Positions 1,148-1,414 of a DNA stretch of 64,000 nt are shown piece by piece. Positions within the stretch are counted from its first letter, which is position 1, and each line of letters starts with the position of its first letter. The stretch covers positions 186,001 through 250,000 of the forward strand of contig JAIOPN010000017.1 of assembly GCA_021413865.1 (NCBI GenBank). Reading direction: 5' to 3'. A program made the translations under genes and the position numbers. The notes below the pieces were generated by a model. It was not told the origin of the DNA. It was given only the letters and a program-made list of their open reading frames with translations, and ran no database searches. The stretch comes from Planctomycetota bacterium (GTDB lineage Bacteria > Planctomycetota > Phycisphaerae > Phycisphaerales > Phycisphaeraceae).

Positions 1148-1180
1148 AAAAAACCCTTCTTATGTTCGATAAGAAGGGCC
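1148..1180 (-). terminator. Intrinsic terminator of the SAM riboswitch expression platform
   Basis: On the minus strand a 10-bp stem (1169-1178 pairing with 1154-1163, loop 1164-1168) is followed by a run of six T residues. It lies about 40 nt upstream of the thrC start and after the riboswitch aptamer, so it acts in the thrC leader rather than at a gene end. Its 5' arm is complementary to the 3' strand of riboswitch helix P1. Confidence 0.92.
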
Positions 1181-1207
1181 TTCATCCTGGGTGGGAATCT
1201 GCCGCTT

Positions 1208-1359
1208 CTTATCTTCCCCCATTCACTCCGGTTTGGGCCCTTGCGGGCTTTGCCGAACGACGGGGCAGGAGTTCGCACCAGTTTCCCCACCGGCTTTCGC
1301 CGGCGGCGGAACGGTTGCGGTGGCTTCACAGGGCCTGTCCCTCAGCCACTCTCGATAAG
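1208..1359 (-). promoter_or_regulatory. SAM-I (S-box) riboswitch in the thrC leader
   Basis: The minus-strand sequence carries the S-box core in order: P1 5' strand CTTATC (1354-1359), AGAG, GAGGGAC, GGCCC, TGAAGCC, GCAACC, then GGTGCGAACTCCTGCC, and the P1 3' strand GATAAG (1208-1213). These are the invariant SAM-binding and kink-turn segments of the family. The aptamer is followed by a terminator whose 5' arm can instead pair with the P1 3' strand, the usual arrangement of an OFF switch: SAM stabilises P1, the terminator forms and thrC is shut off. The assignment rests on sequence and pairing only; the mechanism is inferred from the family. Confidence 0.96.
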
Positions 1360-1385
1360 TCGCGTGTATTCAGTTGTAGAAACCC

Positions 1386-1414
1386 ATAATAGCAGCGTCT
1401 GCCCAGCGGGTCAA
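1386..1414 (-). promoter_or_regulatory. Sigma70-type promoter for the riboswitch-thrC transcript
   Basis: A minus-strand TTGACC (1409-1414), 17-nt spacer and TATTAT (1386-1391). The predicted start near 1379 gives about 20 nt before riboswitch helix P1, so the whole aptamer is transcribed. Confidence 0.8.

Follow-up and report, generated by a model that had tools for sequence, protein, structure and literature searches.

What does a SAM riboswitch control when the gene behind it reads as threonine synthase? The question is raised by the minus strand at the start of the window, i.e., the whole 64,000-nucleotide stretch of Phycisphaeraceae DNA analysed here, where the original prediction placed a SAM-I (S-box) riboswitch at 1148–1414 and took a threonine synthase gene as its target. 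By that label, the target lies outside the methionine genes usual for SAM-I. We favor another reading of the gene and give it a probability of about 0.83: a SAM-I OFF switch would control an operon whose products make homocysteine from O-phosphohomoserine, headed by a MetM-type enzyme. Most likely, the label misnames an enzyme of this type, which serves methionine synthesis and is distinct from the cell's threonine synthase; the riboswitch would then exert ordinary feedback, on a methionine pathway that is unusual and was described only recently. The reading draws on the anatomy of the RNA, on which genes accompany it and how far they are conserved, and on the finding that the usual enzymes are absent here and from most of the genomes that carry the gene.

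The leader RNA agrees closely with what was predicted. Read on the minus strand, positions 1414–1110 carry promoter, SAM-I aptamer, terminator and start codon in this order. The expected TTGACC-17-TATTAT promoter is sigma-70-like, lies at 1414–1386 and matches 10 of 12 consensus positions; it is the sole promoter found in the stretch, where one such arrangement occurs, compared with 0.0 on average over 50 shuffles. The aptamer (1361–1206) scores 73.8 bits with the RF00162 covariance model (gathering score 44.4, E 2e-15), and the alignment spans model positions 1–108 of 108. It is the single match over the gathering score in the 64 kb, and the 4.37 Mb genome (95% complete) yielded no other RF00162 match. 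The 3′ strand of P1, GATAAGAAG (1213–1205), is also the 5′ half of an antiterminator: it is the exact 9-nt complement of CTTCTTATC (1176–1168), the antiterminator 3′ half, located within the 5′ arm of the terminator. The predicted intrinsic terminator (1178–1148) consists of a perfect 10-bp stem with a 5-nt loop (hairpin 1178–1154; −15.9 kcal/mol for this segment) and six T (1153–1148). A simple terminator scan of the stretch did not list the 1178–1154 hairpin; our guess is that the scan extends the stem into the T run. A likely ribosome binding site, GGAG (1120–1117), precedes the ATG start codon (1110–1108). In folding predictions, the leader reaches −100.4 kcal/mol with P1 and terminator and −94.7 kcal/mol with the antiterminator. 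This is the layout of a classical S-box transcriptional OFF switch, in which the aptamer would be expected to bind SAM and the leader to respond to it. Aptamer, promoter, terminator and antiterminator layout are common to this leader and the SAM-I family of RF00162, whereas two arms carry inserts of 20 and 36 positions here where the consensus shows 4 and 4.

The first 370 of the gene's 422 codons occupy 1110–1 (minus strand), and the gene continues beyond the window edge at base 1. The full 422-residue protein passes the cut-offs of both TIGR00260 (thrC; 290.3 bits, cut-off 167.1) and NF006050 (PRK08197, threonine synthase equivalog; 306.6 bits, cut-off 303), so databases will name it threonine synthase, and the solved structures that it matches are threonine synthases. 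For NF006050, the 370 in-window residues alone give 291.7 (cut-off 303), and the full protein of another locus of the class, L131, scores 290.8, i.e., below the same cut-off. The genome encodes six proteins of the PALP fold, and a second, canonical threonine synthase is found at G000:C21 (TIGR00260 248.4 bits), only 28% identical to the S-box-controlled protein. The two differ in motifs around the PLP lysine and the phosphate site: the S-box protein has NYPTFSYKDRVV and STGNLA, the canonical ThrC NPSGSFKDNGM and STGNTS. The motif comparison took 31 loci and left out 8 without a blast hit; the S-box protein does not carry the compared canonical motifs NP[ST][GC]SFKD[RN]GM and STGNT[AS], and we assume that such motifs define activity. 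A quick tree, which we used for the split from canonical ThrC, for phylum labels and for the odd place of two sequences, and which left out L140 and L143 (same contigs as class genomes), separates 93 S-box-type proteins from 10 canonical ThrC with an SH-aLRT of 100 and long branches between. With threonine synthase, as defined by TIGR00260 and NF006050, the protein shares the sequence family, both cut-offs and the likely substrate, O-phosphohomoserine; it differs in motifs, operon and clade.

The gene heads an operon that runs beyond the window and was read on the longer locus L119. The enzyme gene (8110–6842) is followed by a ThiS-family sulfur carrier of 96 residues with the C-terminus AIAGG (6820–6530; ThiS 1.6e-16), an NIL protein of 84 residues (6476–6222; NIL 4.3e-11), a ThiF-family E1 of 367 residues (5607–4504; ThiF 1.7e-71) and a cysteine-desulfurase-family protein (2951–1701; 383.8 bits, cut-off 377), with two DinB_2 proteins (L119:3427–4580) between E1 and desulfurase. 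Across the 13 longer loci of the class (L119–L131), the carrier is present in all 13, the NIL protein in 9, the E1 (at least 54% identity) in 8 and the desulfurase in 6. One of them, from genome G057, has a carrier–E1–rhodanese protein (ThiS, ThiF and Rhodanese; L124:638–2092) roughly 1 kb ahead of the enzyme gene. On the other side of the riboswitch, the window holds an 88-aa ORF (1436–1702) that looks membrane-protein-like by eye and, beyond it, an ORF at 1771–2247 resembling, also by eye, ribosomal protein S7.

The rest of the path was searched for in the source genome. metX has no match there, and of all 16 candidates scored for PF01053 (the family of MetB, MetC, MetY and MetZ), none matches at 1e-20. 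MetH is present. Canonical ThrB gave weak matches only (best 4.4e-6) and was rejected; a putative homoserine kinase of TIGR02535, over its cut-off, is the candidate instead and could supply phosphohomoserine. The NIL protein had suggested a methanogen-type homocysteine route, which we rejected on the finding that HcyBio (PF01837) is not found in this genome.

We hypothesize that cysteine would be the sulfur source, by way of the operon's desulfurase, and that the ThiF-like E1 would attach this sulfur to the carrier's C-terminal GG, giving a thiocarboxylate. From the carrier it would pass to the PLP enzyme, in whose reaction sulfur would take the place of the phosphate group on O-phosphohomoserine. 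Both the reaction and the direction in which sulfur flows are predictions, and any part played by the NIL protein is likewise putative. At low SAM, P1 would be loose, its 3′ strand would pair with the 5′ arm of the terminator, and the operon would be read, drawing phosphohomoserine to homocysteine. At high SAM, P1 would close, the terminator would form and homocysteine synthesis would stop, leaving phosphohomoserine for the separate canonical threonine synthase. In plants, SAM activates threonine synthase; thus, both arrangements would steer flux to threonine at high SAM. The original prediction had described the control as opposite in sign to that of plants, but this follows only if the S-box gene is itself threonine synthase; with a MetM-type enzyme as target, high SAM would favor threonine, which is the plant direction. 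If this is true, the phosphohomoserine branch point is tied to SAM in both, with bacteria switching off the competing methionine enzyme and plants activating threonine synthase.

The arrangement recurs in the class. Among 297 Phycisphaerae genomes, 82 SAM-I matches were found in 77 (over the cut-off in 75), using stricter RNA filters with which weak copies may be missed. Looking for the S-box before the same gene in other Phycisphaerae had been suggested along with the original prediction, and it is found there: 45 of the 82 sites, in 43 genomes, lie upstream of the S-box-type gene, which we read as MetM-type. One of these sites (in G111) scores 44.2 bits, slightly below the gathering score. 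Since 28 of the remaining 37 sites have same-strand MetX or MetY/MetB relatives downstream, SAM-I in the class appears mostly tied to methionine genes. A protein search recovered the S-box-type enzyme, at 53–100% identity, in 44 genomes; after a gap, the remaining matches at 1e-60 or better reach 40% at most. SAM-I is directly upstream in 43 of the 44; the last genome, G058, gave no SAM-I match, and its enzyme match starts at residue 73.

The genomes with the S-box gene tend to be those in which the usual homocysteine enzymes are missing. A PF01053 match better than 1e-20, a limit of our own choice (Pfam's own cut-off gives a match in 295 of the 297 genomes), is absent from 33 of 43 genomes with the gene vs. 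4 of 254 others (Fisher p 1.5e-30), and within the four families that bear the gene from 33 of 43 vs. 2 of 17 (p 5e-6); these p-values are too small, because the genomes are related and independence is overstated. The 254 include G058, although it carries the gene. At most six candidates were scored in nearly all genomes, and the 11 genomes in which all were scored agree. The operon's own desulfurase barely reaches the Pfam cut-off of PF01053 (27.1 vs. 27). A strong MetX match occurs in 6 of the 43 vs. 122 of the 254, where no match in any genome reaches the cut-off of the MetX model. A good PF01053 protein is kept in 10 of the 43 genomes. Six of these (G016, G038, G040, G051, G140 and G210) have a strong MetX match together with a MetY over the TIGR01326 cut-off, so a normal route exists there beside the S-box gene, which is therefore not the only route in every genome. 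In G101, a cystathionine-synthase-like protein is split across two frames, and the PF01053 proteins of G057, G071 and G128 are all divergent and of about 600 aa. If the MetM-type reading is true, the homocysteine step missing from 33 of the 43 sampled class genomes with the S-box gene is filled, and the gene label should be corrected from threonine synthase to probable homocysteine synthase.

Could the label nevertheless be right, with the gene being the cell's threonine synthase and SAM shutting threonine synthesis off? The cut-offs passed by the full protein and the threonine synthase structures that it matches speak for it, yet the canonical ThrC elsewhere in the genome, the differing motifs at the PLP lysine and phosphate site, the sulfur-carrier operon and the exclusion with enzymes of the MetB/MetY family make this reading very unlikely. 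Repression of the threonine branch by SAM was set aside, as it fits poorly with the neighboring genes and with a second ThrC in the genome. What stands of the threonine synthase target in the original prediction is the label; a role as the cell's own threonine synthase is not supported. The second ThrC, the operon, the absence of MetB/MetY and the match to MetM together point, by genomic inference, to a methionine-pathway enzyme downstream of the riboswitch, an outcome that the original prediction had itself named as counting against it. An enzyme of both kinds, which makes threonine and homocysteine from O-phosphohomoserine and is lowered by SAM in both, would find a parallel in a cyanobacterial MetM homologue that, in the available part of PMC12172450, makes threonine and also converts threonine to alpha-ketobutyrate. 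However, a second TIGR00260 match of at least 231 bits is found elsewhere in at least 29 of the 43 genomes with the S-box gene, i.e., a second ThrC is kept here and in at least 28 others, so a threonine role for the S-box enzyme is unneeded and we consider the bifunctional enzyme unlikely.

A further doubt concerns the RNA: the aptamer might no longer sense SAM, being either a decayed copy or a variant for another ligand. Variants of SAM-I for spermidine do exist (PMC10853860), but the full-length match to the SAM-I model and the recurrence of SAM-I before the same gene in 43 genomes and in other phyla leave this extremely unlikely. The 13 spermidine variants in the available part of that paper come from Gram-positive genera and metagenomes and lie upstream of polyamine genes (PMC10853860).

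The nearest known system is MetM/MetO. In work by Hasebe et al. from 2024, MetM is said to draw its sulfur from a carrier, MetO, and a sulfur-carrier gene reportedly adjoins metM in Streptomyces. The available part of PMC12172450 describes MetM as a homocysteine synthase found in Streptomyces (Hasebe et al., doi 10.1128/aem.01247-24) that turns O-phosphohomoserine into homocysteine. It gives S. albulus metM an upstream SAM riboswitch and the M. aeruginosa gene none; M. aeruginosa ThrC is 51.6% identical to MetM, made threonine and was not fully MetM-like in action (PMC12172450). A threonine-synthase homologue and an upstream SAM riboswitch, the latter in S. albulus, are common to Streptomyces and the present locus, as is, reportedly, a neighboring sulfur carrier. 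Putative membership of our protein in the MetM group is judged from the available part of PMC12172450 and from a comparison with Nonomuraea gerenzanensis (Actinomycetota), where SAM-I, an enzyme 50% identical to ours and a carrier 49% identical follow in the same order. In Nonomuraea, an apparent cold-shock gene and groEL, as read from the translations, come after the carrier, whereas the operon here adds an NIL protein, an E1 and a cysteine desulfurase to the two proteins of about 50% identity. The Nonomuraea record (L239, NZ_LT559118.1, 11.85 Mb) is catalogued as a plasmid. The S-box itself is real and its mechanism ordinary; the system is probably of a known type, MetM/MetO under SAM-I, with more sulfur-relay genes than in Nonomuraea.

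Other PLP enzymes are fed by protein thiocarboxylates: CysM takes sulfur from that of CysO, and the Wolinella methionine pathway uses a PF01053-type enzyme. This mode of sulfur supply would be common to them and the present enzyme, while the substrates differ and the Wolinella enzyme belongs to another family than ours. The available part of PMC5764234 cites the protein-thiocarboxylate methionine pathway of Wolinella and describes a DUF39/NIL homocysteine pathway in methanogens and Desulfovibrio. The NIL domain is common to the latter and our operon, with HcyBio as the part not found in the source genome. If the MetM-type reading is true, the small NIL protein is pointed to as a sulfur-transfer partner. 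In Bacillota, the available part of PMC12452182 reports thrC under T-box control and hom1 under tandem SAM riboswitches. A literature search, with most subscription papers outside it, yielded no further paper recognisable as being on MetM, which is weak evidence of novelty.

Relatives in other phyla were collected in a scan of named genomes, from which we took the best 80 of at least 585 (53–84% identity; L139–L218). Of these 80 loci, 39 have a SAM-I match upstream in the same orientation (12, 6, 7 and 14 in the four batches), and three of the 39 repeat class genomes (contigs L140, L143 and L175); no Rfam match to SAM-I was found in the other 41, some with little upstream DNA. In 31 of the 39, the SAM-I end is within 400 nt of the match, and these loci belong to Planctomycetota, Verrucomicrobiota, Kiritimatiellota, Myxococcota, Pseudomonadota, Acidobacteriota, Methylomirabilota and Omnitrophota or are unclassed. 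The 8 loci with SAM-I at 403–2239 nt add Binatota, Thermodesulfobacteriota and Chloroflexota. Among the leaders, 29 of 45 in the class and 31 of the 39 others have a terminator-like hairpin, and antiterminator complements of at least 7 nt occur in 20 of 45 and 15 of 39, respectively. Termination may therefore not be general; leaders without a found terminator or antiterminator may act on translation, or the elements may have been missed.

The sulfur carrier travels with the enzyme as well. Among the best 80 of at least 585, L175 has no complete gene; in the other 79 loci, a carrier is near the enzyme gene in 64, an NIL protein in 45 and an E1 in 20, and no desulfurase (0 of 79) was found within 3 kb. 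At least 500 nt of downstream DNA is available in 75 of these, for which the carrier count is 67, under a distance limit different from that of the 64 of 79. In the 68 loci with a carrier match, GG is C-terminal in 29 carriers and lies among the last 12 residues in 32, with 7 carriers of other kinds; the residues after GG in many carriers suggest processing before activation. Carrier (ThiS) and NIL protein are fused near the enzyme in four loci (L150:5645–6160, L160:4275–4790, L168:4288–4803 and L183:4248–4769), where GG is internal and a protease would be needed to release the carrier.

We consider the chances even that SAM-I on a MetM-type enzyme is a widespread and largely unrecognised methionine control, spread over about twelve phyla, nine of them with SAM-I no more than 400 nt from the gene. 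In part, it would be fuller than in Nonomuraea, with a dedicated relay of desulfurase, E1 and carrier and with the NIL protein, fused to the carrier in four loci, as a working part; the phosphohomoserine branch would be set by SAM in the plant direction, by means of an RNA. In the quick tree, the enzymes of G057 and G063 (L124 and L125) group with Kiritimatiellota and Verrucomicrobiota, apart from the other class genomes, as if separately gained. The enzyme of L141, on a contig titled Acidobacteria that may be mis-binned, is 74% identical to the one in the window and is placed among Phycisphaeraceae.
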